This document shows positions 3,157-17,689 of a stretch of DNA of 55,057 nucleotides, piece after piece. Under the pieces are notes generated by a model. The model was not told where the DNA came from and ran no database searches. It saw nothing but the letters and a program-made list of their open reading frames with translations. Position 1 is the stretch's first letter. Each line of letters opens with the position of its first letter. This stretch comes from Ruminococcus sp. (lineage in GTDB: Bacteria; Bacillota; Clostridia; Oscillospirales; Ruminococcaceae): contig JAGCYM010000075.1 in NCBI GenBank assembly GCA_017960805.1, positions 1 to 55,057 on the forward strand. Reading direction: 5' to 3'. Position numbers and translations under genes: made by a program.

Positions 3157-4377
3157 ATGAAAGAAATGAAAAGAAAAGGCATTTTCAAGAGAATAGCCGT
3201 CCTTGCTGTATCTCTTACAATGCTTGCTTCTGCTACAGCGTGTGGCAAGCCGCAAAACGTAGGCGGAAAAGTTGCGGTAATATGTAAGAATGAAAAAGTT
3301 TCATTCTGGGAAGAAGTTAAAACCGGCGCTAAAGACTGCTGTGATGAAATGGGCTACGACTTGCTCTACTATGTTGCAAGCGGTGATAATGATTTCTCAA
3401 GCCAGATTGAGTACATCAATGATGCTATCAGCAAGGATGTCAAGGCTATCGTAATAGCTCCAAACGATACTAATGAGCTGAACGAAGCTTTAGAAAGAGC
3501 AACAAAGAAAGGCATCAAGATAATATATATCAACTCCCGTGCCAACTTTGATCAGGCATCTTCTTACGTTGGTTCAAGTGACTTTGATGGCGGTGCTGTT
3601 GCAGCAAGAAATGCTGTTCGAATCATGTTCACAACTGCTTCTGAGACAGAAACAACTGTCGGAAAGGTAGCACTTATAGGTCATACCGCATCAACCGCTG
3701 ATCTACGTCTTACAGGTTTCAAAGCAACATTTTCTTCATCACTTGGTGAATATATAGCTCAGCAAAAAGCTGCTCAGGCACAGGCTTTAGCAGCAGCTAA
3801 CGGAGAAAATGGCAGTGTTCCTCAGGAAGGTGCTCCACAGAGTACTACTGCTGCAAATACACAGGGTGGCCCTCCTGCAGGAGTTACAAACGGCAATTCT
3901 TCTGAACAAGCCGGCGCATCAGGCGTAGGTGGAAGAGAAATGACTTACGAAGAGAAGCAGGCAATGATTTCCAGCTACTTCATCGAAGGCAATCGCTGTG
4001 CTACTCAGGAAGCTTCATATGAGGAAGCTAAAAAGCTTTTAACTGAGAACAATGATATCAGAGTTATGTTTACAACCAACACCAATACTACATTAGGTGC
4101 TTGTCAGGCTATAGAAGAGCTTGATCTTGCAGATACAATCACTGTTGTAGGATTCAACTCAGATGAACAAGAACTTAAATACATCAAAACAGGAGTGCTT
4201 GACGGTACAATCATCCAGAATCCTTACAACATGGGTTATATCGGTGTAAGATACGGTATCCAGGCTGCTAACGGTGAAAATGTTACTGGTTCGCTCGATA
4301 CTGGTGTTACATGGATATCGGCAAAGAATATCAACGATGATGACATTCAGCTTCTGCTGTATCCTGAAAAAGCTTAA
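3157..4377 (+). CDS. Sugar-binding-type periplasmic lipoprotein (type 1 PBP fold)
   Basis: 406 residues. AAGGAGG precedes the ATG. An N-terminal signal with a lipobox-like ASATAC (Cys about 29) predicts a surface lipoprotein. The body matches the ribose/galactose-binding family (Peripla_BP_4): FWEEVKTGAKDCCDEMGYDL near the start, YINDAISKDVKAIVIAPND, GKVALIGH, and near the C-terminus TITVVGFNSDEQELKYIKTG and GTIIQNPYNMGYIG. Unusual is a Gln/Ala/Gly/Pro-rich insert of about 60 residues (about 205-270) splitting the central part. No ABC ATPase or permease gene is nearby; instead the next gene, joined by translational overlap, is a membrane GGDEF protein. This suggests a ligand sensor rather than a transporter subunit, which is inference. 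Confidence 0.85.
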   Translation: MKEMKRKGIFKRIAVLAVSLTMLASATACGKPQNVGGKVAVICKNEKVSFWEEVKTGAKDCCDEMGYDLLYYVASGDNDFSSQIEYINDAISKDVKAIVIAPNDTNELNEALERATKKGIKIIYINSRANFDQASSYVGSSDFDGGAVAARNAVRIMFTTASETETTVGKVALIGHTASTADLRLTGFKATFSSSLGEYIAQQKAAQAQALAAANGENGSVPQEGAPQSTTAANTQGGPPAGVTNGNSSEQAGASGVGGREMTYEEKQAMISSYFIEGNRCATQEASYEEAKKLLTENNDIRVMFTTNTNTTLGACQAIEELDLADTITVVGFNSDEQELKYIKTGVLDGTIIQNPYNMGYIGVRYGIQAANGENVTGSLDTGVTWISAKNINDDDIQLLLYPEKA

Positions 4378-4391
4378 TGGAGGTTAGAATT

Positions 4392-5609
4392 ATGGCAAAA
4401 GCTAATAATACAAATCGTTCGACTGCATACACTTTTGCAGCTATCCTGCTTGCATTAGTAACTGCAATAAATATGTTTCTCGTATTTTATCTGTTCAACA
4501 GCATTCAGTCTATAGGTAGAAACACATCAACAACAATGAACACCATCAACTCTATCAACGGTGAATTACAGAGTATAAACCAGCGAGTTCTTACTATCAT
4601 CGCAGGTATAGGTACTCAACAGAGTCAGGCAGCTACTGCCGACAGTATTGAAGTTTCATTCGATTCAATAGAAGAAAAATTCAATACTTTTGAAAACTAT
4701 GAAGGACTTAGTGAAGCAACAACAAAACGCTGCCGCCATGCTAGAGTTTTCGTAGAAGCTTACCGTAAACGTCTGACTTCATTACGTGATCAGTTAAACA
4801 GCCAAGAAGGACTTTCATCTGGTGGTTCATTAACAGATATCTACACTCAGGATATCTATCCTCTTAAGACAACGGCATCAGAAATGCTTGTAGCTACTAT
4901 CAATATCAATGGTGCAGACTCTAGTCGTAAGCAGGCTAAATCAGCAAAGATATTCATTTATACAGAGCTTATCATGGCTTTAATCCTTATTCTTGGTGAG
5001 CTCGCCATCTTCATTATCGCTTCAAGAACCAAGAAGGTTCGTGCTGAACTTGAAGAGCGTGAAAAGAATCTTCAGGAAGTTGGTGCTAAGCTCAAGTCAA
5101 CCAGACAGAAAGCATCTGACCTTGCTCTTACAAACCTCCTTACCGGTATGAAGAACCGTTACGCACTTGAAAATGATATAAGCGGACGCCTTGAATCAGA
5201 TCGTTTCAACATTGCTGTATTTGATATGGATAACTTCAGAATCATCAACGATACTTATGGTTATGAATTCGGTGATGAATACCTTTCTGCAATTGCTGAA
5301 AAGCTCAAGGATGAATTCGGAGATGTAGCTGAAATCTACAACATCACCGGTAATGAATTCTGCTTCCTCTTCAATAAGGAATACACTGAAAGTCAGTCCA
5401 TGGCCTTCGTTCAGAAGATCCATACTATTATGAGCAGTCCTTTCACTGTTCTCAACCTTACTGTTCAGCTCACAGTATCCGGTGCTGCTTACCATTACCT
5501 CCCCGGCGATTGTCTCAATGTAAACTCACTTCTTGTTAAGCTTGATACTACAATGAGAAATGCTAAGATGAACGGCGGAAATATGGTAAATACCGTTGTG
5601 AACATCTAA
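4392..5609 (+). CDS. Membrane GGDEF-domain protein with degenerate TGNEF motif
   Basis: 405 residues from ATG 4392; an in-frame ATG at 4377 overlaps the previous stop, but GGAGG (4379-4383) fits 4392. Order: TM helix (about 15-37), extracytoplasmic helical sensor region (about 40-185), second TM (about 188-210), coiled linker (EELEEREKNLQEVG), GGDEF-family domain (about 240-405) with LTGMKNRYALENDI and FDMDNFRIINDTYGYEFGD. The signature GG[D/E]EF reads T319-G-N-E-F323, so the first Gly and the acidic residue are replaced. In the family this usually means loss of diguanylate cyclase activity. With its lipoprotein partner it may form a two-protein ligand sensor feeding into c-di-GMP or GTP binding. 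Membership is sure; activity is doubtful. Confidence 0.85.
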   Translation: MAKANNTNRSTAYTFAAILLALVTAINMFLVFYLFNSIQSIGRNTSTTMNTINSINGELQSINQRVLTIIAGIGTQQSQAATADSIEVSFDSIEEKFNTFENYEGLSEATTKRCRHARVFVEAYRKRLTSLRDQLNSQEGLSSGGSLTDIYTQDIYPLKTTASEMLVATININGADSSRKQAKSAKIFIYTELIMALILILGELAIFIIASRTKKVRAELEEREKNLQEVGAKLKSTRQKASDLALTNLLTGMKNRYALENDISGRLESDRFNIAVFDMDNFRIINDTYGYEFGDEYLSAIAEKLKDEFGDVAEIYNITGNEFCFLFNKEYTESQSMAFVQKIHTIMSSPFTVLNLTVQLTVSGAAYHYLPGDCLNVNSLLVKLDTTMRNAKMNGGNMVNTVVNI

Positions 5610-5866: not shown

Positions 5867-6424
5867 ATGAACAAATACGCCGTTTACAAGAATGCTTACG
5901 GTATGTATTGCTATAAATACGCTGATTCCCTCGAGCAAGTTGAAGGAACCGGATTTGAAGGCCTGATTCGTGAAGAACAACTTCCGGTTGTTTTTGACGA
6001 TAAAGGAGGATATTATAAGTTTGATCCAAAAGATCACCATTTTGTCGAAATAATTGAGTCTGACAATAAATATCCTCTTCCCCTTGAAAAAATGTTCAGA
6101 CACAACGACCCCGCTTTCAAACTGGGTTGGATTTCTCCTGATGGAGATACTTATTCATGTGAATATCACAGTCATAACAAATGTGCAGAATCCATTGTTC
6201 GCACTTTTTATCCCAAGTCAAAATTCCCTGAACTTACACTTCACAGAAAAGGCTGGATAGAGGTAATCGATTCTTGGGATGGAAAGGAAAAAACCCACAA
6301 CAGATATGTTCATTCTGAACTAGGCGCGATAACACAAAAGCAGGCGGATAAGCTGTTTGATCTCGGACTATATGAAAGGCCAGAAGTTCAGGCACTTATC
6401 AGTTCCTGCGAGGGAAATTGGTGA
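5867..6424 (+). CDS. Hypothetical cytosolic protein, 185 residues
   Basis: I do not recognise this family. The frame is open from 5777, but that position is inside the promoter, so ATG 5867 (after AGAAGGGAAAG) is the likely start. The protein is soluble, with no signal peptide or TM segment, and rich in charged and aromatic residues. Visible features are MNKYAVYKNAYGMYCYKYAD at the N-terminus, a His/Cys-bearing middle (YSCEYHSHNKCAESIVRTFYP, about 103-123) that could bind metal, and a Trp/Asp stretch KGWIEVIDSWDGKEK. The C-terminus ITQKQADKLFDLGLYERPEV is helical. It is transcribed alone. Codon use resembles its neighbours. Function unknown. Confidence 0.75.
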   Translation: MNKYAVYKNAYGMYCYKYADSLEQVEGTGFEGLIREEQLPVVFDDKGGYYKFDPKDHHFVEIIESDNKYPLPLEKMFRHNDPAFKLGWISPDGDTYSCEYHSHNKCAESIVRTFYPKSKFPELTLHRKGWIEVIDSWDGKEKTHNRYVHSELGAITQKQADKLFDLGLYERPEVQALISSCEGNW

Positions 6425-6530: not shown

Positions 6531-6559
6531 TTGACTTTATTTTCGTGATGTAGTATAAT
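6531..6559 (+). promoter_or_regulatory. Strong sigma-A promoter at the head of the sensor/kinase block
   Basis: TTGACT (6531-6536), 17 bp, TATAAT (6554-6559). Expected start about 6566, giving a 90-nt leader. Confidence 0.85.
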
Positions 6560-6585
6560 AAAGTATATGTATTATAATGTATAAG

Positions 6586-6624
6586 TAGGCGGGATTTTTT
6601 CTGCTGTCATGCTGACTCCGCCTA
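6586..6624 (+). other. Leader stem-loop
   Basis: TAGGCGG (6586-6592) pairs with CCGCCTA (6618-6624) around a 25-nt loop. It lies between promoter and ATG and has no T-tract after it, so it is not a terminator; it may stabilise or attenuate the transcript. Confidence 0.35.
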
Positions 6625-6654
6625 ATATCATATATCTGAGGAGGAACTTCAAAG

Positions 6655-7737
6655 ATGCCTGAATCCCGTTTTATAAAAACCGTTACTTACGGAGGTTACG
6701 ACAAAGCTGATGTTATACGAAGACTTGAGTTTCTAAACGAACAGCTCTTCTCTCTAAAGAACGAGCTTCGTGAAACGAAGCTATTGCTTGAAAGCAGTAA
6801 AAACGGTAAGGAAATTCAGAAAAGCATTGAAACTATTCTTGCTGGTGAAAGAGCAAAGCTTACAGAAGTTCAGGTTCAGAATGAAACACTTTCTACAAAG
6901 ATCAAGGCTGTAGAAGACAGTAACAGAAAATACGAAGAAGAGATAAAGAAACTTAATGCTTTGCTTGAAGAAGCTAATTCAAAGCTCTCAGATGCCAATA
7001 CTCAGCTTGCGGCTTCTAATACTGATGATGAAGCATTAGCACTAAGTGCAGTTTTCATTGAAGCCAAAAAATCCGCTGACATGCTTGAGAACTCAGCTAA
7101 AGAAAAAGCAGATCAGCTTCAGAACTCTGCAGCTGAAGCTGCCGAAGAATCCATTGCGTACGCTAATGATGAGAGTGCAATGATTATCTATGAGGCTGAA
7201 TGCAAAGCTGCCGATATTATTGCAAATGCTAAGAATTCTGCTGGCAACCTGGGAGCCTCTTATGAAAATATCCGCTCATCAGTTCTCTCAAAAATAAACG
7301 CTCTTGGTGAGCAACTCACCAATGTTAAAGACGCTATCGCAAAATTGGAAGAAAATAGTGTAAGTAACCTCTCTGAATGCGATGAAATGCTCAAAAAGGC
7401 TGAGGATACACTAAATGAAAGCGAAGTTCCTTCAATCGATGAACCGGCAAAATATACTCCTGAGTATCCCGAACGTCCGAAGAGAACTGCCGAACATGAA
7501 TTGATTGAAGCAAGGAAAAGAAAAGAAGAACTTGATAAGCTAAAGCAAATGGCTGAATCACTTGGTGACAATAATGATAAAGAAGCACCTGTTGATTCTT
7601 CAGCACCTGCAAAAGAAGAAACAGCACCTACAGACACAAGTGACAACAAAGATAATAACAATAATAACAGTAAAAAAGGTGGAAAAATTGACCTCGCTAT
7701 GCTTGCAAAACAAGCTCAAGCCCTAAAAGGAAAATAA
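6655..7737 (+). CDS. DivIVA-like coiled-coil protein
   Basis: 360 residues; GAGGAGG ahead of the ATG. The first 45 residues (FIKTVTYGGYDKADVIRRLE) resemble the DivIVA N-terminal membrane-curvature domain with its GYD+V pattern. A long coiled coil follows (about 30-240, rich in Glu, Lys, Ala), interrupted by an Ala-rich segment (SADMLENSAKEKADQLQNSA). Then come a Pro/Glu/Arg segment (KYTPEYPERPKRTAEHELIE), an acidic Asn-rich linker, and a basic tail (KIDLAMLAKQAQALKGK). It has no signal peptide or TM helix. DivIVA-like proteins recruit partners to the cell pole or septum. Here it is the first gene of a block of hydrogenase-like, kinase and phosphatase genes, so a scaffold role is plausible. 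Family assignment rests on the N-terminus only. Confidence 0.65.
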   Translation: MPESRFIKTVTYGGYDKADVIRRLEFLNEQLFSLKNELRETKLLLESSKNGKEIQKSIETILAGERAKLTEVQVQNETLSTKIKAVEDSNRKYEEEIKKLNALLEEANSKLSDANTQLAASNTDDEALALSAVFIEAKKSADMLENSAKEKADQLQNSAAEAAEESIAYANDESAMIIYEAECKAADIIANAKNSAGNLGASYENIRSSVLSKINALGEQLTNVKDAIAKLEENSVSNLSECDEMLKKAEDTLNESEVPSIDEPAKYTPEYPERPKRTAEHELIEARKRKEELDKLKQMAESLGDNNDKEAPVDSSAPAKEETAPTDTSDNKDNNNNNSKKGGKIDLAMLAKQAQALKGK

Positions 7738-7781
7738 CATCTAATTAATCTATTTCTTATATATTCAAGGAGTATATCACA

Positions 7782-9458
7782 ATGAACGAATTAATTATTG
7801 TTAAGCCAGAAAAATGTACAGGCTGCAACACTTGTGTAAGAAATTGTCCTGCACCAGAAGCTAATATTGTTAAACAATTGGATAACGGCAAATTCATTGT
7901 ATCAGTAAACCCTGATAAATGCATTGCCTGTGGTGAGTGCGTACGTTCATGCGTTAATGGTGCAAGAGATTATATTGATGATACTGAAGAATGCATGTCA
8001 TTCCTTATAAAGGAAAAGCTTATTCTCCTGGTATCCCCTGCTATAAAAGCTGCTCTTCCTAACAACTGGAAAGGTGTTCTTGACTGGTTCAAAGGTCAAG
8101 GATGCACTATCTATGATGCTTCTCTCGGCGCCGATATATGTACATGGGCTCACCTTAGAGCTATAGAACAGGGAACGATTGGAAATGTCGTTACTCAGCC
8201 ATGTTCTGCAATAGTAAAGTATATTGAGACATACCAGCCTCAGATGCTTCAGAATCTTTCCCCTATCCACAGTCCCGAATCATGTTCAGCTATATACATA
8301 AAAAAATATCTGAGGCGTACTAACCATATCGCATATCTATCTACATGTATTTCTAAAAAAATAGAGTTTGTTGATACTGAACTGATAGATTACAATCTAA
8401 CTGTAGGTAAACTAATGACTTATTTTGAAAGGAACGGCATTACTTTCCCTACTGATACTACTGACTCATATGAGTATAAGTTTGATGATACCCAGGGACA
8501 GTGCGGAAGCATCTATTCTCGTCCCGGTGGATTAAGAGACAATTTATGGCTTCATAATTCCGACATAAATATCACTACTTCAGAAGGTGTACATAAGGTT
8601 TACAATGAAATCAACATGTATGCTAAGATGCCGGAGGCAAAACATCCGCAGGTATTTGATGTTCTGTCATGTGAATTCGGATGCAATATCGGACCTGCAG
8701 CTAATACAAACCAGACGTTTTTCGATGTAATGGATGTTATGCGAAAAGTTGAAAACGACGCCAAAACTCGCCGTAAATCAGGATTTATGGGCCGAGGTGA
8801 TGATAAGCTTTTCAAACGTTTCGATGATGAACTCCGTGCATCTGATTTCGTCCGCAACTACAAGCCATCAGTTCCGACCCCTATTCCTTCCGAACAGCAG
8901 CTTGAATCAATCTATAAGAAGATGGGCAAGCAATCAAAGGATGAAAAGGAATTCAACTGTCATGCATGCGGATTCAATACATGCCGAGAAATGGCTATCG
9001 CCATATCCCGTGGGCTCAATACACCTGAAAACTGTATTGTACATGCAAAATCTGTTTTGGATTCTAAGCACTCAACACTTACACTTGAGCATGAAAAACT
9101 TGAAGAGATAGCCTCAGAATGTCTTGATCTTTCCGGTAAGCTCAAGGAAGATATTGTAAATATCACCAGCAGCATGAATTCAATCGATGAATCAACTTCT
9201 GCCACAAAGGAACGCGCTACTGTCGTCAAGGATCTGCTGCAGAACATCGTAACATTCTGCTCCGAGAACCCGACTATGGACGCTGACAGTGTTGAGCAGC
9301 TCATAGGTATACTCAATACGACTATTGACGCCTTCAGTTCACTCGATGACAATGTAAACATCACAAATGAGAATTCAGCAGCCATAAATCAGTCTATTTC
9401 CAAGATTATTTCATTGGTTGAAAACATTAATGAGGTACTCGTAAAATCCGCAAAATAA
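7782..9458 (+). CDS. Sensory-type [FeFe]-hydrogenase-like protein with 4Fe-4S and chemoreceptor-like tail
   Basis: 558 residues; AAGGAG before the ATG. Order: two 4Fe-4S ferredoxin motifs (C12-x2-C15-x2-C18-x3-C22 and C47-x2-C50-x2-C53-x3-C57); H-cluster domain with the four cluster Cys kept (C141 in TQPCSAIVKYIE, C189 in STCISKKIE, C297 and C301 in LSCEFGCNIG); a further Cys motif C393-x2-C396-x4-C401 near CHACGFNTC, of the 4Fe-4S type found in regulatory hydrogenases; and a 130-residue helical tail (about 430-558) like the signalling part of chemoreceptors. In catalytic enzymes L1 is TSCCP; here the proton-relay Cys is Pro140. This favours a redox or H2 sensor over a bulk enzyme. It lacks PAS and kinase domains, so its output must be another protein. 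It is cotranscribed with the DivIVA-like gene (44-nt gap). Confidence 0.8.
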   Translation: MNELIIVKPEKCTGCNTCVRNCPAPEANIVKQLDNGKFIVSVNPDKCIACGECVRSCVNGARDYIDDTEECMSFLIKEKLILLVSPAIKAALPNNWKGVLDWFKGQGCTIYDASLGADICTWAHLRAIEQGTIGNVVTQPCSAIVKYIETYQPQMLQNLSPIHSPESCSAIYIKKYLRRTNHIAYLSTCISKKIEFVDTELIDYNLTVGKLMTYFERNGITFPTDTTDSYEYKFDDTQGQCGSIYSRPGGLRDNLWLHNSDINITTSEGVHKVYNEINMYAKMPEAKHPQVFDVLSCEFGCNIGPAANTNQTFFDVMDVMRKVENDAKTRRKSGFMGRGDDKLFKRFDDELRASDFVRNYKPSVPTPIPSEQQLESIYKKMGKQSKDEKEFNCHACGFNTCREMAIAISRGLNTPENCIVHAKSVLDSKHSTLTLEHEKLEEIASECLDLSGKLKEDIVNITSSMNSIDESTSATKERATVVKDLLQNIVTFCSENPTMDADSVEQLIGILNTTIDAFSSLDDNVNITNENSAAINQSISKIISLVENINEVLVKSAK

Positions 9459-9529
9459 GGAAAATGTTTAGTTTGGTATAAATATAGTACCAATTTACAC
9501 TTTATCTATATTCTCAATACATTATAGGG

Positions 9530-9590
9530 AACGCCGAACTCGGGTTTTTGTGCGATATGTTCAAAAGCCTGCTCTATGTTCGGCGTTTTC
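9530..9590 (+). terminator. Long-loop inverted repeat, possible terminator
   Basis: AACGCCGAAC (9530-9539) pairs perfectly with GTTCGGCGTT (9578-9587) across a 38-nt loop, followed by TTTC. The loop is long for an intrinsic terminator; its position between the hydrogenase-like gene and the next promoter supports it. Confidence 0.45.
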
Positions 9591-9594
9591 GTCC

Positions 9595-9623
9595 TTGACA
9601 TTAATTCTAATAAGTGATATAAT
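9595..9623 (+). promoter_or_regulatory. Near-consensus sigma-A promoter of the kinase/VWA/PP2C operon
   Basis: TTGACA (9595-9600), 17 bp, TATAAT (9618-9623): both boxes perfect. It starts the transcript for the zinc-ribbon/LRR, kinase, VWA, PP2C and deaminase-like genes. Confidence 0.9.
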
Positions 9624-9735
9624 TAAAACATAATTAGCGTACGTATCTTCAATAAATAATACAATTTCGCTTGAAGCTGCAGCACCGTTTTTTATGCTGC
9701 CTTCTTCGCTGAGCGCTAATGACAGGAGGGACACT

Positions 9736-10770
9736 ATGCAGTGCGAAAAATGCGGTAATGAACTCAACCCAAAACATGTCGCCTGCCCGGCATGCGGAGC
9801 TCCTGTTCCGCAAACAATCGAAGGGTTTGAAAACACTATCGACTTTCAGCGCGAACTTAGAGCTATAGTCATAGACAATGGTCCGCGAGCAGTAATGAGC
9901 AAAAACAAGTTTATCGGTCTGCTTTATGACCACATTCCCGACCATGACAAAGAACGTCGGCTGTTGCAGAATATGTACTTAATGGGCGTATTCAAGATGC
10001 TTCTTGCCGATGATAACAAAGAAATTGCTATCATGAAAGCAAAGAGTTACATGCTTAACGATTTGTTCATAGCTGAAAACGCAGTTGAATTTGTACTTGC
10101 CTGCTTTACATATCTGATTGGCTGGCCGTATGAATCACCTATGAAAATTCTGCCAGATAGCAATGATCAGGAAACAGAACAGGAAAAGAAACCTGTACGC
10201 CTGAGTATAGATACAAAGGTATTCCGCCCGATTGATGCTGTAAGATATCGTCTCAGAAGCAATATCGAAATTGCTGACGGTTATACAAAGATCGAGAGTT
10301 TCTGCTTTGACGGATTCGGTTCACTCAGAACAGTCAAACTCCCTGAATCACTTCTTGCAATCGGCGAATATGCATTTTCATCATGCAAGCGTCTGAGAGG
10401 ACTTGATCTTCCTAGTTCGCTCAAGGTTATAAAGCAGGGTGCATTCTGTCAGTGTGCAAAACTCGCAATGGTCAAGATACCATCTGGTATCCTAGAAATT
10501 GAAGACAGCACATTCTCATTCTGTACAAGCCTGGAAACAATTGATATTCCAGATACAGTAAGCAGTATCGGCGCAGAAGCATTCTCAGGATGTGAAAAGC
10601 TCAGAAAGCTTTATCTCCCTGACAGTGTAAAGTTCATTGACACAAATGCTTTTTCATACTGCCCTAACCTTACTATACATTGCTTCGAAAACTCTTATGT
10701 TCATAAATTCTGCCTGTCTAACCGTATTAACTACAAACTTGTTACAACAGCAGGAATTGAAGAGGATTAA
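9736..10770 (+). CDS. Zinc-ribbon plus LRR_5 protein, cytosolic
   Basis: 344 residues from ATG 9736 with AGGAGGG at 9724-9730; an earlier in-frame ATG at 9694 lacks such a site. N-terminal zinc ribbon with C3-x2-C6 and C17-x2-C20. A helical domain (about 30-165) rich in Met/Leu follows with no family I can name. The C-terminal half (about 185-335) has BspA-type LRR_5 repeats: TIDIPDTVSSIGAEAFSGCE, KLYLPDSVKFIDTNAFSYC. There is no signal peptide, unlike the secreted LRR_5 proteins elsewhere in this window, so it should act in the cytosol. It is the first gene of the kinase/VWA/PP2C operon and may be an adaptor for those proteins (inference). Confidence 0.8.
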   Translation: MQCEKCGNELNPKHVACPACGAPVPQTIEGFENTIDFQRELRAIVIDNGPRAVMSKNKFIGLLYDHIPDHDKERRLLQNMYLMGVFKMLLADDNKEIAIMKAKSYMLNDLFIAENAVEFVLACFTYLIGWPYESPMKILPDSNDQETEQEKKPVRLSIDTKVFRPIDAVRYRLRSNIEIADGYTKIESFCFDGFGSLRTVKLPESLLAIGEYAFSSCKRLRGLDLPSSLKVIKQGAFCQCAKLAMVKIPSGILEIEDSTFSFCTSLETIDIPDTVSSIGAEAFSGCEKLRKLYLPDSVKFIDTNAFSYCPNLTIHCFENSYVHKFCLSNRINYKLVTTAGIEED

Positions 10771-10812
10771 TTCTATGAAAGCACATACCACACACGGAAA
10801 GGATGAAATGAT

Positions 10813-12156
10813 ATGACAGAACTTGAAATTGGCCAGGAAGTCGAACTTGAATTCGGCGGAAAAGCCCAGGTTTTAAGTGTTATTGGCGCCGGCGGACAGG
10901 GTACCGTTTACCTTGTACGTTTCAACGGCCAGAAATGGGCGCTGAAATGGTACGATATAGACAAGATGAAAAAACCTAAGGAATTCCTCAAAAATCTCCG
11001 CAGCAATATCGCTGATGGTCCCCCGGACAATAAATTCCTTTGGCCGAAATACCTCACAAAAGAAGCTGAGGACGGTACATTCGGATATATCATGGATCTT
11101 AAACCTGATGGATTTGATTCATTTGTTGACATCCTCAATACATACAAGCTCGAAGTTGATCCGCTTACTGGACGCGCTGTAAAGAAAGATGTCAAGTTCA
11201 GCAGTCTCACAGCTATGATCACAGCTGTTATCAACATCGTAAACTCATTCCGCCTCCTTCACAGAGCCGGAAAGAGCTATCAGGACCTTAACGACGGAGG
11301 CTTCTTCATTAATGTAAATACAGGAGCTGTTCTCGTCTGCGACTGTGATAACATCGCTCCTGACGGAAGCAACTTCGGTATCGGAGGTAAGCCTGGATAT
11401 ATGGCACCTGAAGTTGTTAGAGGAATAGCTCAGCCAAATGTTCAGACTGATAAGTACTCACTTGCTGTAGTACTGTTCAAGCTCCTGTTCCGTGGTGATC
11501 CTATGGAAGGCGAAAAAGTTGTCAGAGATGTCTGCCTCACTGAGTCATCGGAACTCAAACATTATGGCCAGAACGCCATATTCGTATATGATCCAAACGA
11601 CGCTTCAAATCGTCCCGTAAGAGGCATACATGACAATGTAATAAAGTTCTGGAGAATCTATCCGGATTATATAAAGGATGCATTTATCCGTTCATTTACA
11701 ACGGGAATAAGTGATCCGACTAAACGTATCATAGAGAACGAATGGCAGAAGCTCTTCATCAGACTGCGTTCAGAAATAATCATGTGCGGCTGTGGAAGAA
11801 CAAATTTTGCTTCCATGTTCGTTCAGCCGAATGAGAAAACATTTAAATGTCCAAAATGCGGCATGGAATTCGCAACACTCGGATTCAGCAACAGAGATTA
11901 TCGTATGCCGCTTTATCTGGGCTGCAAGTTCTACGAATGCGAAATGAGTCTTGAATCAGAAGAATTCATGAAAGTTGCGGGAGAACTCGTTGAAAACAAG
12001 CTCAAGCCTGGTGTTCTTGGTATCAAGAACTGTTCAGACAGAATATGGCGCGCAAAAATGCCGGATGGTAATTTTTACGATATAGCTCCGGGAAAAGGTT
12101 TCCCGGTATGGCAGGGTCTGGAGATCGACTTTGGCCAGATCAAAGCACAAATCTAA
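10813..12156 (+). CDS. Atypical protein kinase with C-terminal zinc ribbon (TerY-P triad kinase)
   Basis: 447 residues; GGAAAGGAT precedes ATG 10813. Ser/Thr-kinase fold: glycine loop G25-A-G-G-Q-G-T-V, catalytic Lys45 in WALKWY, catalytic-loop YQDLND (Asp158), metal-binding D177-C-D instead of DFG, then GYMAPEVVRG and TDKYSLAVVLFKLL. The usual HRD is YQD, and the Asn after it is Gly, so phosphotransfer may be altered. Near 318-345 a zinc ribbon (MCGCGRTNFASM ... KCPKCG) and a C-terminal beta-rich segment follow. Kinases with these departures occur with VWA (TerY-like) and PP2C partners, as here: the VWA gene is 34 nt downstream and PP2C after that. Soluble, cytosolic. Substrate unknown; the VWA protein and the deaminase-like protein are candidates. 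Confidence 0.85.
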   Translation: MTELEIGQEVELEFGGKAQVLSVIGAGGQGTVYLVRFNGQKWALKWYDIDKMKKPKEFLKNLRSNIADGPPDNKFLWPKYLTKEAEDGTFGYIMDLKPDGFDSFVDILNTYKLEVDPLTGRAVKKDVKFSSLTAMITAVINIVNSFRLLHRAGKSYQDLNDGGFFINVNTGAVLVCDCDNIAPDGSNFGIGGKPGYMAPEVVRGIAQPNVQTDKYSLAVVLFKLLFRGDPMEGEKVVRDVCLTESSELKHYGQNAIFVYDPNDASNRPVRGIHDNVIKFWRIYPDYIKDAFIRSFTTGISDPTKRIIENEWQKLFIRLRSEIIMCGCGRTNFASMFVQPNEKTFKCPKCGMEFATLGFSNRDYRMPLYLGCKFYECEMSLESEEFMKVAGELVENKLKPGVLGIKNCSDRIWRAKMPDGNFYDIAPGKGFPVWQGLEIDFGQIKAQI

Positions 12157-12190
12157 AATCTAATTTCAGATTACTGAAAGGATGTAGTTT

Positions 12191-13042
12191 ATGAATATTG
12201 AAAACCTTAATAATCCTGGAGCTAATGCAGCAATGAATAATGCTGCTTCTGCAGGCAGTGTTAATACCGCTCCGGCAGATGATCTTCTCGATTTCGACGA
12301 TGATCCCCTAAGCGCAACAGGCGTTTCAAGAAAAAGTCTCGTAATTTTCTTCCTTATCGATACTTCAGGAAGTATGAAGGGAAAGAAAATGGGTGAGCTC
12401 AATACTGTTATGGAAGAGCTTATCCCTGAAATACGCAAAGTCGGTGAAGCTGATACAGAAGTTAAAGTAGCTGTTCTCACTTTCTCAACCGATGTTAAAT
12501 GGATGTATTCAACACCTATTCCGATAGAGGAATTTGAGTGGGCTAGACTCCGTGCAAGTGGTGTTACAAGTCTTGGTGCTGCTCTTAAGGAGCTTAATGC
12601 AAGAATGTCACGTAACGGATTCCTCAACTCCCCTTCTCTTTCATTTGCACCTGTTATCTTCCTCATGACTGATGGTTATCCTTCAGATGACTATAAGGCT
12701 GGTCTAAAGGAACTCCAGGCTAACAGCTGGTACAAATTCGGCCTTAAAGCCGCTCTTGGTATCGGAAGCGAAGCAAATGACAATGTTCTTACAGAATTTA
12801 CAGGTTCCGCTGACACTGTAGTTCACGCTTATTCAGGTGGTCAGCTTGCCCAGATGATCAAGATCATAGCTGTTACTTCCTCTCAGATTGGAAGTAAGAG
12901 TATGACTCTTTCTGATGACACAAGCCACGAGCTTGGTGAAGAGGATGTATTCGCAGCTAAGCAGAAGCTCCTCGGTCAGCAGATTCAGGAACTCGTTGGA
13001 AATGCTGAAACAGACGACGTTCCTTTCGATACTGGCTGGTAA
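12191..13042 (+). CDS. VWA domain protein, TerY-like
   Basis: 283 residues; GAAAGGATG before the ATG. A low-complexity N-terminus of about 45 residues rich in Asn/Ala/Asp precedes a single von Willebrand A domain (about 48-225). The metal-ion-dependent adhesion site is complete: D57-T-S-G-S61, Thr in SGVTSLGAALKEL, and Asp in LMTDGYPSD. There is no signal peptide or TM helix, so the protein should act in the cytosol, as TerY-like proteins do. It sits between the kinase and PP2C genes, the arrangement of the TerY-P triad. In that family the VWA protein is thought to be a phosphorylated, metal-bridged scaffold. No ter tellurite genes (terC, terD) are present in this window. Confidence 0.9.
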   Translation: MNIENLNNPGANAAMNNAASAGSVNTAPADDLLDFDDDPLSATGVSRKSLVIFFLIDTSGSMKGKKMGELNTVMEELIPEIRKVGEADTEVKVAVLTFSTDVKWMYSTPIPIEEFEWARLRASGVTSLGAALKELNARMSRNGFLNSPSLSFAPVIFLMTDGYPSDDYKAGLKELQANSWYKFGLKAALGIGSEANDNVLTEFTGSADTVVHAYSGGQLAQMIKIIAVTSSQIGSKSMTLSDDTSHELGEEDVFAAKQKLLGQQIQELVGNAETDDVPFDTGW

Positions 13043-13090
13043 ACAAACCTTATTACCCGATTATTATTACTGGAAGGGGTCCGGAATTAA

Positions 13091-14005
13091 ATGTTCAATG
13101 GTTTCAGTCACTCAGTCATGGGTGCTAGTCATGAAAAAACAGGTCTGGTTTGCCAGGACAGCTCTGCCTATAAGGTATGTGACGATTATGCTGTCTGTGT
13201 TGTTGCTGACGGTCATGGAAGCAAGAAACACTTCCGAAGCAATCTTGGCTCTAAATTTGCTGTTGAAGCAACTATTTCAACAATAGACAGATTCTATACT
13301 GATAAAGAGAGCTTCGAAGAATGTCTTCCAAAGAATCATAAAATGATCATTAAGAATATTCAGAAGCAGATAATATCTGACTGGAATGCTCTTGTTGAAA
13401 AGCATATCAAGAATAATCCTGTCACAGAAGAGGAAAAAAGCAAATTCACTGAAGAAGAATTTGAAGCTATCCCGCCTGAATCATACTATGGCACAACTTT
13501 AATAGTTGGAGTTGCAGGAAAAAATTTCACTTTTGGCGTTCAGATCGGTGACGGAACTCTTGTCGCTATTTTCGATGACGGAAAAGCAGTAATGCCTATG
13601 GAATACAACGAAGCAGCCCCTGCAAATGTTACAGCATCGATGTGCAATTCAAATGCTGCAGGTATGTTTAGTGCATTCTACCGTGATAAACACAAGCTTA
13701 TTGCTATGTTCACATCAACTGACGGACTCTATACCTCTTTTGGAAGTGAATTTGACTTCCTCGATTATCATACTATAATTACAAGTCACCTTTATGATAT
13801 TGAGAATTTCAAGAAAATAGTCGTCAACAACTTGACGAAACGAGCTCATTTTGGCACAGAGGATGATATCTCCCTCTCATGTATATACAACGAAGAGTTG
13901 CTAAATGAAAAACGCGAATTAATTGAATCTGAGGTTGCAGCCAACAAACAGCGTGCAGCTGACAGAAAGGCCAAAAGGCTTGAAAAACACGTTGAAACTG
14001 AATAA
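13091..14005 (+). CDS. PP2C-family Ser/Thr protein phosphatase
   Basis: 304 residues; GGAAGGGG lies before the ATG. The fold spans about residues 1-270 and retains metal-binding acids: VVADGHGS (Asp40), FGVQIGDGTLVAIF, TSTDGLYTSFG, and GTEDDISLSC near the end. The N-terminus SVMGASHEKTGLVCQDSSAY matches the PP2C type found next to TerY-like VWA proteins. A basic tail (about 275-304, KQRAADRKAKRLEKHVE) follows. It should dephosphorylate targets of the kinase encoded 0.9 kb upstream in the same operon. No TM segment. The family call is firm; the substrate is inferred. Confidence 0.92.
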   Translation: MFNGFSHSVMGASHEKTGLVCQDSSAYKVCDDYAVCVVADGHGSKKHFRSNLGSKFAVEATISTIDRFYTDKESFEECLPKNHKMIIKNIQKQIISDWNALVEKHIKNNPVTEEEKSKFTEEEFEAIPPESYYGTTLIVGVAGKNFTFGVQIGDGTLVAIFDDGKAVMPMEYNEAAPANVTASMCNSNAAGMFSAFYRDKHKLIAMFTSTDGLYTSFGSEFDFLDYHTIITSHLYDIENFKKIVVNNLTKRAHFGTEDDISLSCIYNEELLNEKRELIESEVAANKQRAADRKAKRLEKHVETE

Positions 14006-14028
14006 TTATAGGGATTTATTCATTATGA

Positions 14029-15345
<1,317 letters not shown>

Positions 15346-15371
15346 TATTATCTTGATCTATTCTCTCCCCC

Positions 15372-15392
15372 TCCTTAAGTAAGTCTTAAGGA
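15372..15392 (+). other. Inverted repeat after the deaminase-like gene
   Basis: TCCTTAAG (15372-15379) pairs with CTTAAGGA (15385-15392). No T-run follows, so termination is uncertain. Confidence 0.35.
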
Positions 15393-15476
15393 ATGAGAAT
15401 GAATCAACTTTATTCTAAAAATAATCAAAGCCTTGTTTACAAAAAAATGAATCATGTTTAATTTCTTCGTTATATC

Positions 15477-15505
15477 TTGCAAAGTCTCTAATCTTATGAT
15501 ACAAT
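15477..15505 (+). promoter_or_regulatory. Sigma-A type promoter
   Basis: TTGCAA (15477-15482), 17 bp, TACAAT (15500-15505), about 100 bp before the next ATG. Confidence 0.75.
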
Positions 15506-15602
15506 AAAGAAAGTGTTCAAAGAAGATTGATTACATCTGATGACTTAATACGCAAGGCATTCATTAGTTTAGTATTATCTTAAAGTCAAGGAAGGTATAT
15601 TT

Positions 15603-16139
15603 ATGACTCATTTACTTAATATAGATGAAGCGGTAGACCGAAAGTTTCTTATCACCAAAAATGTGAAGGGCCAGGCTGCGGCAGGAACTATCATTCACGT
15701 TTTGGATGCTGAAAAGAGTTCCGGTGGAAGTGTAAACGTACTCTACCGTGTTGCACGTTTCAATGAAAAATTCCACGATTATCAAGACTATAACGCAAAG
15801 TTTGACAACCTTGCTGCATTCTGCAAATGGGCTCAGCCTGATAATTTCATAGCACGTAACTATGAGATGCTCTCTCTTTCTGACATTCAGCATTATATAA
15901 AAATCAAGAAAAGAAACTTTACTTCATTCTGTCTGCCACTTATCCTAATTGCTGCTATTATCATATGGGCTTTATTATACTTCACACTCGGCGCTGGTAT
16001 AGCAATGATAGTAATCGGAGTCTTTCTTACACTTGGTATTACAGTTGCTGTACTCCTGCTCCTAAAGAAGCAGAAGAAAAAGGAAAAAGTCCGACTGTAT
16101 CATAAGATCAGTTCAAACTGGGGAGTCGTTCTAAAATAA
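15603..16139 (+). CDS. Small membrane protein with cytosolic N-terminal domain
   Basis: 178 residues; AAGGAAGG before the ATG. Family not recognised. Residues 1-105 look soluble and mixed alpha/beta (MTHLLNIDEAVDRKFLITKN ... NLAAFCKWAQPDNFIARNY). Two adjacent TM helices (about 108-129 and 131-152) and a short basic tail follow. No signal peptide. It has its own promoter and terminator but lies directly after the kinase/VWA/PP2C operon on the same strand, so it could be that system's membrane partner; this is only positional. Confidence 0.75.
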   Translation: MTHLLNIDEAVDRKFLITKNVKGQAAAGTIIHVLDAEKSSGGSVNVLYRVARFNEKFHDYQDYNAKFDNLAAFCKWAQPDNFIARNYEMLSLSDIQHYIKIKKRNFTSFCLPLILIAAIIIWALLYFTLGAGIAMIVIGVFLTLGITVAVLLLLKKQKKKEKVRLYHKISSNWGVVLK

Positions 16140-16534: not shown

Positions 16535-17689
16535 ATGAAAACTAAAAAAATGGTAATAAGAACTGCTGCACTTCTTGCAGCCATAACTCTAACATCTGGA
16601 GCGATTCTGCCAGTTCAGAATTGTAATTATTCAGCAAATCAGTTTTCAGCATATGCAGAAGGAAACTATACAACCGGAGAAGAAGGAATATACAAATATT
16701 TAAAGTATTCAGATCATATTGAGATCTCATTCTGTAATACATCAGCAACATCAGCCGATATTCCATCGACAATTGAAGGACTTCCGGTTACTGTAATAGG
16801 AATGTACGCCTTCCAAAATCGTCCGCTCAAATCAGTAACTATACCGGATACGGTAACTGAAATAGGACATTATGCGTTCGGCTACTGTTCCGAACTCAAA
16901 TCTGTTACGATACCTGACAGTGTTCAGAAAATAGGAATTCGAGCCTTTGAGAGCTGTCCCGCACTTGAAGAAGTTAATTTCCCTGATCATTTAGTAGAAA
17001 TACAATCAAATGCTTTTGAAAACACAGCATGGCTGAAAGCATTGCAAAAAGAAGATCCTCTTGTTATTATAAATGGTGCTCTAGTAGACGCACAGACAAC
17101 CAAAGGTAAAGTAGTGATACCTTCCAGTGTCAAGTATGTTTGCCCAAGCGCTTTCGCCAGAAATCTGGATGTTACTTCTGTTGTATTTCCTTCAAGCGTT
17201 TCAGCGATAAACGATAATGTATTCTTCTATTGTTCAAATCTTGAATCAGTAGAGGTTAAGGGTGCCACATTTATCGACAGCATGGCATTTGCTTACTGCA
17301 ACAAACTTACTGATGTCAAGCTTTCCGGAAAACTAACAAAAATAGATGAGCGTGCTTTTTCTGACATAACAGCAAGAGCAACCATAACATTCTACGGAAG
17401 CAAGGAAACATGGAATAAGGTTGAAAAGAAAGAGGATGATCCGTTCCTCAAGAATGCTACATACATATTTGATGAAAACCATATTGATGACCCTGAAGAA
17501 GATATTGAAGGCGATGTTAATATGGACGGAAAATTCAATGTATCAGATATAGTACTTTTCCAGCAATGGCTCCTTGGAAACCCTGATTCAGAATTGAAGA
17601 ACTGGAAGGCTGCTGATTTTATAAAAGATGAGCATCTTGATCATTTTGATCTTATTGCTATGAGAAAAGAACTGATTAAACGTAGTTAA
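16535..17689 (+). CDS. Secreted LRR_5 protein with C-terminal dockerin
   Basis: 384 residues; GGGATGGTGAT before the ATG. Signal peptide (about 1-40, ALLAAITLTSGAILPVQ), LRR_5 repeats (about 70-300; VTIPDTVTEIGHYAFGYCSE, VTIPDSVQKIGIRAFESCPA), then a dockerin type I module (about 325-384). Its first calcium loop reads GDVNMDGKFNVSDIVLFQQW and the second, weaker loop is KDEHLDHFDLIAMRKE, in which some calcium ligands differ from consensus. Dockerins dock proteins to cohesins of cellulosome-like scaffolds on the cell surface. There is no glycoside hydrolase or carbohydrate-binding module, so this would be a non-catalytic component. It is transcribed alone. Confidence 0.88.
   Translation: MKTKKMVIRTAALLAAITLTSGAILPVQNCNYSANQFSAYAEGNYTTGEEGIYKYLKYSDHIEISFCNTSATSADIPSTIEGLPVTVIGMYAFQNRPLKSVTIPDTVTEIGHYAFGYCSELKSVTIPDSVQKIGIRAFESCPALEEVNFPDHLVEIQSNAFENTAWLKALQKEDPLVIINGALVDAQTTKGKVVIPSSVKYVCPSAFARNLDVTSVVFPSSVSAINDNVFFYCSNLESVEVKGATFIDSMAFAYCNKLTDVKLSGKLTKIDERAFSDITARATITFYGSKETWNKVEKKEDDPFLKNATYIFDENHIDDPEEDIEGDVNMDGKFNVSDIVLFQQWLLGNPDSELKNWKAADFIKDEHLDHFDLIAMRKELIKRS

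Follow-up and report, generated by a model that had tools for sequence, protein, structure and literature searches.

According to the available text of PMC11090510, a TerY-P triad consists of a TerY-like VWA protein, a PP2C-type phosphatase and a Ser/Thr kinase with a C-terminal zinc ribbon; such triads are discussed there together with tellurite resistance, restriction and phage defence, and that text names no substrate for them. Putative H2-sensing [FeFe]-hydrogenases, for their part, are widespread in rumen and gut bacteria, and in the available portions of PMC13104023 and PMC6776011 the onward path of their signal is unresolved. One putative sensory class, C3 of HydDB, is called 'phosphatase-linked' (PMC5037454, in the part available), and the sensory hydrogenase of Ruminococcus albus is described in the accessible text of PMC6776011 with a putative Ser/Thr phosphatase partner, so that a link between hydrogenase and phosphatase is not new in itself. 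Here, a 55,057-nucleotide stretch of Ruminococcus sp. DNA (contig JAGCYM010000075.1, hereafter the window) is analyzed, in which genes for a DivIVA-like protein (Div) and a HydS-like [FeFe]-hydrogenase-derived sensor candidate (Hyd) precede a core encoding a zinc-ribbon and leucine-rich-repeat (LRR) protein (LRRzn), a TerY-P-type kinase (Kin), a VWA protein, a PP2C phosphatase and a deaminase-derived protein with a PQQGGY-type linker (Dea). Its gene content suggests a so far undescribed form of a signalling system of a kind known in bacteria.

The new part would be a hydrogenase linked to an entire TerY-P triad together with a client derived from a deaminase, a combination that was not found in the open-licence literature. 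There, papers naming both TerY and hydrogenase look unrelated in the parts available, and those using the term 'TerY-P' deal, by title and start of abstract, with phage defence, restriction or Helicobacter and Streptococcus genomes. This agrees with the original prediction, made from the DNA letters alone, which knew of no described system of such membership; several of the literature results were partial lists. A conserved locus joining an H2-sensor-like Hyd, a TerY-P triad and a candidate client would open both the onward path of the H2 signal and the substrate of the triad to direct tests in species that can be cultured, among them the non-pathogenic R. flavefaciens, and it bears on H2 flow in the rumen. 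The parts of the locus and their linkage are held with high confidence. The reading of the whole, a TerY-P-type switch without obligatory Ter partners, with Dea as its dedicated client and coupled to H2 or redox sensing, is proposed tentatively and falls a little short of what we would call probable.

The window forms contig C27 in a genome of 2.57 Mb with a completeness of 64%, and in the kinase comparison its closest named relatives, at 97% identity, are R. flavefaciens strains and rumen Ruminococcus metagenome-assembled genomes. Relatives were collected by scanning genome contigs with a 17-kinase alignment, the best 80 of at least 574 being kept (kinase identity 72-97%), and the gene content of each locus was read by searching six-frame stretches with profiles derived from the window sequences and those of its relatives. 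Linkage counts rest on this six-frame table only; the picking of open reading frames (ORFs) had hidden some VWA and PP2C genes behind antisense ORFs. Counts for full loci refer to the 41 loci flanked on both sides by at least 9.5 kb, the 39 loci with less on a side being left out. Moreover, 148 genomes of the family of the window and an order-level sample of 295 genomes were surveyed.

All eight ORFs named in the original prediction are present on the plus strand in the order it gave, and Pfam agrees with its hydrogenase-like, zinc-ribbon-LRR, kinase, VWA and PP2C assignments, the zinc-ribbon match of LRRzn being weak. Across the full loci, the VWA gene is found in 41 and LRRzn, PP2C and Dea in 40 each, and LRRzn-Kin-VWA-PP2C-Dea lie on the kinase strand in one order in 40/41, the exception being L151. 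The VWA gene stands beside the kinase in all 74 loci with at least 1.5 kb downstream, and PP2C beside the kinase/VWA pair in 68 of the 71 with at least 2.6 kb downstream. The three loci that depart from this (L139, L140 and L151) are divergent: they keep the kinase, the VWA gene and the gene of a protein with two transmembrane segments (2-TM), and show no PP2C and no LRRzn match above a score of 300, Dea lying upstream in L139 and L140 and not being found in L151. In the family sample the kinase occurs at 60% identity or more in 12/148 genomes, and long Dea matches (E<1e-30) in 11, always on the kinase contig within ~10 kb; in the twelfth core-kinase genome (G055) the kinase contig is only 3.7 kb long. 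At the order level, kinase relatives at E<=1e-40 appear in 8 genomes and Dea at E<=1e-15 in 2 only, both of the genus of the window. As a control, the 476 other ORFs of at least 90 residues were clustered, and no family was present in more than 5/80 loci, a figure that rests on picked ORFs and could undercount neighbours behind antisense ORFs.

The residues expected of a working triad can be followed through the alignments. The kinase reads YQDLND at the HRD position and CDCDN at the DFG position and ends in a CxC...CxxC ribbon, with K45, D158, D177, D179 and the four ribbon cysteines kept in 81/81 rows. The MIDAS residues of the VWA protein (DTSxS, T and D) are kept in 78/78, and the ADGHG and DGL motifs of PP2C are kept in 71/71. 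Judged by these motifs, the kinase, VWA and PP2C proteins have all three elements of the published TerY-P definition, as had been claimed.

Ter partners are a different matter. Half of the core-bearing genomes (6/12) have no TerD match: the 64% complete genome of the window itself, G019 (listed as 100% complete), G035, G071, G090 and G113. In the other six (G028, G055, G096, G103, G135 and G139) TerD lies elsewhere, and the 25 kb on either side of the core kinase are free of it; it comes closest in G139, ~26 kb away on the same contig. On this count the system in the window is a branch of TerY-P with no need of a TerD neighbour. More distant kinase paralogues in the family do adjoin TerD (for example G092:C6, G096:C76, G111:C19 and G002:C3), and P-type ATPase genes lie beside two kinase paralogues near TerD (L037 and L042). 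Also, within the same genus, G135 carries at L064:9516-14957 a second kinase (60% identical) with PP2C near TerD, AIM24 and ECF sigma genes; having YHALSD instead of YQDLND, this copy may be inactive.

Dea is the candidate client. Taken alone, the window protein matches 0 Pfam families and its deaminase domain is undetectable. PF00383 is matched at E<=0.1 by 11 of the 15 N-terminal domains that were aligned (best 6.4e-9), that of the window giving no match, and all four PDB matches of the family profile at E<=1 are blasticidin-S or cytidine deaminases (best E 0.0065). Residues ~1-130 are thereby predicted to form a cytidine-deaminase-type domain, and the deaminase-like label of the original prediction stands. 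The zinc site is lost in the window, where PAE and PNEAA replace (C/H)xE and PCxxC; over 81 rows it is intact in 19, partial in 15 and without any of its three ligands in 47, the window included. These rows (63 + 8 + 10) include near-duplicates of one genome (L098/fam_L054, L119/fam_L057 and L084/L085). Intact sites occur in several branches, the Dea of L061 carrying CPE...PCAEC, and the state of the site changes at least 7 times on the kinase tree. Inspection of three weak genome matches showed short proteins of deaminase type that carry CAE and PCGRC motifs and look like ordinary cytidine deaminases.

Beyond this domain, the linker is rich in Q/G/Y/P (at least a third of its residues) in 51/63 copies, a composition that suggests it may form assemblies. 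A loose pattern finds a Lys/Arg-rich C-terminal tail in 54/63 copies and also fired on L142, which is cut before the tail; the nine copies that it missed are seven truncated by a contig end, L077 with its frame broken and L100, whose tail is a variant. The linker and tail counts leave out the 8/71 Dea copies that are not in one clean ORF, which were counted for the zinc site.

Hyd is built of a 2x[4Fe-4S] domain, an H-domain and a C-terminal FeS domain (PF04060, 3.3e-7), followed by ~130 residues with no Pfam family. Leaving out the cut copies L082 and L134, the H-cluster cysteines C141, C189, C297 and C301 are kept in 42/42, the F-domain cysteines in 41/41 copies reaching them, and the four cysteines of the C-terminal FeS domain in 42/42. 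Sensory [FeFe]-hydrogenases are reported, in the available text of PMC10055695, to be altered at Cys299, Met353 and Met497 (CpI numbering). At these positions, whose columns were matched by motif and by eye, the window protein has P, S and L, and among the 42 copies the first position is P/Q/S in 42, the second S/T in 42 and the third L in 38, with M retained in 4. Read in this way, Hyd carries substitutions of the sensory type. No PAS family is present among its Pfam matches at E<=0.1. The genome of the window has a second HydS-like gene, 55% identical (L071:12685-14349, contig G000:C9), which by eye lies beside an ABC-2-type permease.

The DivIVA-like label fares less evenly. The window protein falls under the Pfam cut-off (PF05103, 23.2 bits against 28, over the coiled-coil part only), and 9 of 15 aligned relatives match the family at E<=0.01, the best at 1.1e-7. 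Div has a conserved N-terminal RFIKTVTFGGYDK motif. PDB matches of its N-terminal profile were generic coiled coils and were rejected as uninformative.

As to linkage, Hyd lies within ~10 kb of the kinase in 31 and Div in 30 of the full loci, and where both were scored (40 loci) they are always on the same strand with midpoints within 2 kb. Hyd is upstream on the opposite strand in 14 full loci, upstream on the same strand in 13 and downstream in 4 (3 opposite, 1 same). Its arrangement takes four states of position and orientation; for the 43 loci with Hyd, the kinase tree requires at least 5 changes between these states, and its presence or absence changes 7 times. That Hyd has stayed close while being rearranged several times favours a functional tie over inherited synteny alone. 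In the family sample, close Hyd (at least 54% identity) is found in 6/148 genomes, all of them with the core kinase and each with a copy that has Div beside it; this is 6/12 core-bearing against 0/136 other genomes (Fisher 7e-8, with cut-offs set post hoc and kinship uncorrected). In G000, G103 and G113 the close Hyd is near the kinase. An early small sample had suggested that Hyd was mostly unlinked, which the 80 named loci overturned for the close clade only.

The two strong promoters of the original prediction were recovered, at 6531 (11/12) and at 9595 (12/12, TG-extended). Promoter-like sites as a whole are not above chance in the region (39 against 33.2 in shuffles, standard deviation 5.7), so that the case rests on the quality of these two sites and on the conservation of the second. 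A site of at least 11/12 lies within 260 bases upstream of LRRzn in 59/71 relatives, the mean of the shuffle medians at the same score being 8.8; the scan covered 71/80 loci, the others having too little upstream sequence or no clear LRRzn, and its control shuffled single bases. The hairpin before the core promoter has its z of -5.3 from folding 9525-9605 and is absent from the terminator scan list. Promoter and preceding hairpin split the block into two transcription units in the window, where the Div/Hyd pair and the core are probably transcribed separately. Conversely, in L114, L116, L141 and L147 Hyd ends 12-98 nucleotides before LRRzn on the same strand, no near-consensus promoter was found between the two genes, and Hyd and the core probably form a single operon.

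The linked block reaches upstream to ~3157, with two genes, a sugar-binding-type protein (PBP) and a membrane protein with a degenerate GGDEF domain (GGDEFu), found near the kinase in 27 and 29 full loci, nearly as often as Hyd. The two genes overlap by one base. In the window GGDEFu has TGNEF in place of the GG(D/E)EF active site, and this is the commonest motif among the kinds listed (32 of the 39 relatives tallied). Moreover, a GGDEF gene lies between PP2C and Dea in 10/41 full loci; this downstream protein (GGDEFd) has GGDEF in 13/22 and SGDEF or TGDEF in 6. Neither the upstream pair nor the GGDEF genes inside some core operons were part of the original prediction. At L061:12678-19433, seven ORFs of ~276-307 residues stand between PP2C and Dea, the five inspected being related membrane GGDEF proteins, some with altered motifs.

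Under the reading proposed here, H2 or the redox state of ferredoxin would alter Hyd, whose signal would pass to the kinase/phosphatase pair via LRRzn or the VWA protein. The kinase would then phosphorylate Dea in its tail or linker, PP2C would reverse this, and phosphorylation would change the partner binding or the assembly of Dea, while the membrane GGDEF proteins could act as a second-messenger arm in some species. In the original prediction, Div would also place the triad at a cell pole, and a protein coupled to the triad would form assemblies in the cytosol. A bolder version can be drawn for fibre-degrading Ruminococcus, in which a Div-held HydS-like protein would form an H2-gated circuit setting the TerY-P kinase/PP2C balance and, through it, the assembly of the pseudo-deaminase via its prion-like PQQGGY linker, with the GGDEF proteins, degenerate and intact alike, as its second-messenger arm; such an H2-responsive, phosphorylation-controlled condensate is very doubtful as a whole.

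Several observations weigh against the proposed switch. Because the 80 loci were chosen by their kinase, as the best among at least 574, they are related to one another and the core count partly reflects this choice, and the kinase tree (81 rows, quick method) has 29/77 inner branches starred. Nine complete Dea copies (L097, L100, L116, L124, L126, L127, L133, L144 and L147) have no repeats, three other low-linker copies being cut or frame-broken; of the PQQGGY repeat protein of the original prediction, the deaminase-like head and the basic tail are what persists, and being the constant parts they imply that the repeats alone cannot define its function. An apparent association of intact zinc sites with GGDEFd (13/15 against 9/49) came down to 4 pairs with a median p of 1 when paired on the tree, and was dropped. 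Regarding Hyd, it was not found within ~10 kb in 10/41 full loci, one of them that of R. flavefaciens FD-1 (L136), which shows the core maintained where Hyd is not close by, and the opposite-strand position upstream accounts for 14 of the 31 linked loci. Close Hyd lies away from the core in three of its six genomes: in G035 and G090 the Div-Hyd pair and the kinase are on different contigs, and in G135 the pair is off the contig of the core copy and lies ~36 kb from the second kinase copy. When a looser cut of E<=1e-60 is applied, 22/148 genomes have a hydrogenase relative, and the core kinase is present in 9 of these and absent from 13; the hydrogenase family at large is therefore not bound to the core. 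The second Hyd copy of the window's own genome has no DivIVA-like neighbour, and the core has its own promoter in the window and in most relatives.

As an alternative, two independent modules may share a neighbourhood, the core being a general stress TerY-P switch and Div-Hyd, perhaps with PBP-GGDEF, a separate H2- or sugar-sensing unit regulating something else. Separate promoters with a hairpin between the units, the loci with no Hyd found nearby, the three genomes with Div-Hyd off the core contig and the hydrogenase relatives without a core kinase are all in its favour. However, proximity survives at least 5 rearrangements, no other family is comparably linked, the four loci above probably have one operon, and close Hyd co-occurs with the core in 6/6 genomes. 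This makes two modules somewhat unlikely, although it is the alternative that survives best. The original prediction had itself proposed that finding the hydrogenase-like and DivIVA-like genes apart from the triad in most relatives would speak against it; in the close clade they are linked in most full loci, which is in its favour, whereas the three family genomes with close Hyd away from the core and, at the looser cut, the 13 of 22 hydrogenase-bearing genomes lacking the core kinase go against it. The original interpretation is thus supported in part.

A second alternative concerns the client. Dea could be, or have been, an enzyme whose substrate is a signalling nucleoside or nucleotide and whose activity is set by the kinase/phosphatase pair, with the species that lack a zinc site keeping it as a ligand-binding receptor. 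The intact motifs in 19/81 rows spread over several branches, the downstream GGDEF gene in 13 of 15 intact loci and the three stand-alone relatives resembling ordinary cytidine deaminases would fit. Nonetheless, the 47 rows without any ligand, among them the window, and a GGDEF association that is not independent of kinship render this highly improbable. Least probable of all is an anti-phage or conflict system regulated by the triad, as in type II/III-A CoCoNuTs and stand-alone TerY-P-like defence modules: in the available text of PMC11090510, TerY-P triads are found together with restriction systems and modules resembling them counter phage on their own, the open-licence papers naming 'TerY-P' are by title mostly on defence or restriction, the kinase weakly matches PADLOC kinase models (PD-T4-6 1.1e-11, mad6 6e-11) and two order-level kinase relatives adjoin, by eye, a WXG100-like and a SpoVK-like gene, but no nuclease, helicase or toxin domain is among the Pfam matches of the conserved genes, only the kinase of the 8 proteins matches PADLOC at E<=0.01, gene order is constant, the promoter is strong and conserved, and the linked partners are of metabolic or redox type.

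The features of the block are collected in Table 1. LRRzn most likely starts at its AGGAGG-preceded ATG rather than at the opening of its ORF. The 2-TM gene is kept near the kinase in 35/41 full loci and on either strand; its weak Pfam matches were uninformative, with no consistent family among 15 members. The u1 gene is near the kinase in 21/41 full loci.

Table 1. Features of the linked block in the window (E-values are Pfam matches unless stated)
Feature	Coordinates	Strand	Evidence or remark
PBP, Peripla_BP_4 sugar-binding-type protein, lipoprotein-like N-terminus	3157..4377	+	PF13407 2.7e-46
GGDEFu, membrane protein with degenerate GGDEF domain (TGNEF)	4377..5609	+	PF00990 7e-21
u1, 185 aa, often beside Div gene	5867..6424	+	no Pfam match
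Sigma-70-like promoter, 11/12, spacer 17	6531..6559	+	
Div, DivIVA-like coiled-coil protein	6655..7737	+	PF05103 7.3e-5, under Pfam cut-off
Hyd, HydS-like [FeFe]-hydrogenase-derived sensor candidate	7782..9458	+	Fe_hyd_lg_C 2.7e-21
Strong RNA hairpin between Hyd and core, possible terminator	9527..9590	+	minimum free energy -32.7 kcal/mol, z -5.3
Core promoter, perfect consensus TTGACA-17-TATAAT, TG before -10, 12/12	9595..9623	+	
LRRzn, Zn-ribbon and BspA-type LRR protein (ORF open from 9694)	9736..10770	+	PF13306 (LRR_5) 6.5e-37
Kin, TerY-P-type Ser/Thr kinase with C-terminal zinc ribbon	10813..12156	+	PF00069 (Pkinase) 6.5e-11
TerY/YegL-like VWA protein	12191..13042	+	PF00092 1.7e-10
PP2C-type phosphatase	13091..14005	+	PF13672 (PP2C_2) 6.7e-33
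Dea, cytidine-deaminase-derived scaffold candidate, PQQGGY-type linker	14068..15345	+	family profiles, not window protein alone
2-TM protein	15603..16139	+	kept in 35/41 full loci, either strand

Other genes were seen around the block. Directly downstream, window positions 16535-17689 encode a BspA-LRR protein that has a signal-like N-terminus and carries a type I dockerin, which points to cellulosome use by the organism. At 503-1093, a plus-strand ORF with a highly regular Ala/Val/Thr/Glu repeat faces a long ORF on the minus strand that gives an LRR/dockerin-like match. In three relatives (L059:11690-16437, L100:5446-8741 and L144:3770-5284), a MoxR-like AAA+ ATPase, a DUF2201/VWA metallopeptidase-like protein and an extra LRR protein stand between Hyd and the core, and the Dea of these loci has no Q/G/Y/P-rich linker.

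Finally, the locus can be set against the described systems it resembles. It shares with TerY-P triads three adjacent genes, a kinase with a four-cysteine C-terminal ribbon and intact MIDAS and PP2C motifs, and differs in adding the near-invariant LRRzn and Dea. The triad is also remotely homologous to yegI-pphC-yegL of E. coli, the kinase to YegI (hhalign probability 97.3%, E 1.8e-11), the VWA protein to YegL (31% over 126 residues, 2e-10) and PP2C to PphC (21%, 0.001), whereas no LRR, deaminase or hydrogenase product is among the 13 features there and YegI has 648 residues. With the cytidine and blasticidin-S deaminases (PF00383) Dea shares its domain, homologous by profile, to which it adds a usually Q/G/Y/P-rich linker and a basic tail, its zinc site being wholly or partly lost in 62/81 rows. 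Hyd is like the HydDB C3 and C2 ('chemotactic') classes and the R. albus protein in keeping the H-cluster cysteines, in the replaced proton-relay cysteine, in its C-terminal FeS domain and in the PP2C gene nearby, a likeness drawn from motifs and gene neighbourhood; unlike them, it gives no PAS match, has a DivIVA-like partner and adjoins a whole kinase/VWA/PP2C triad.

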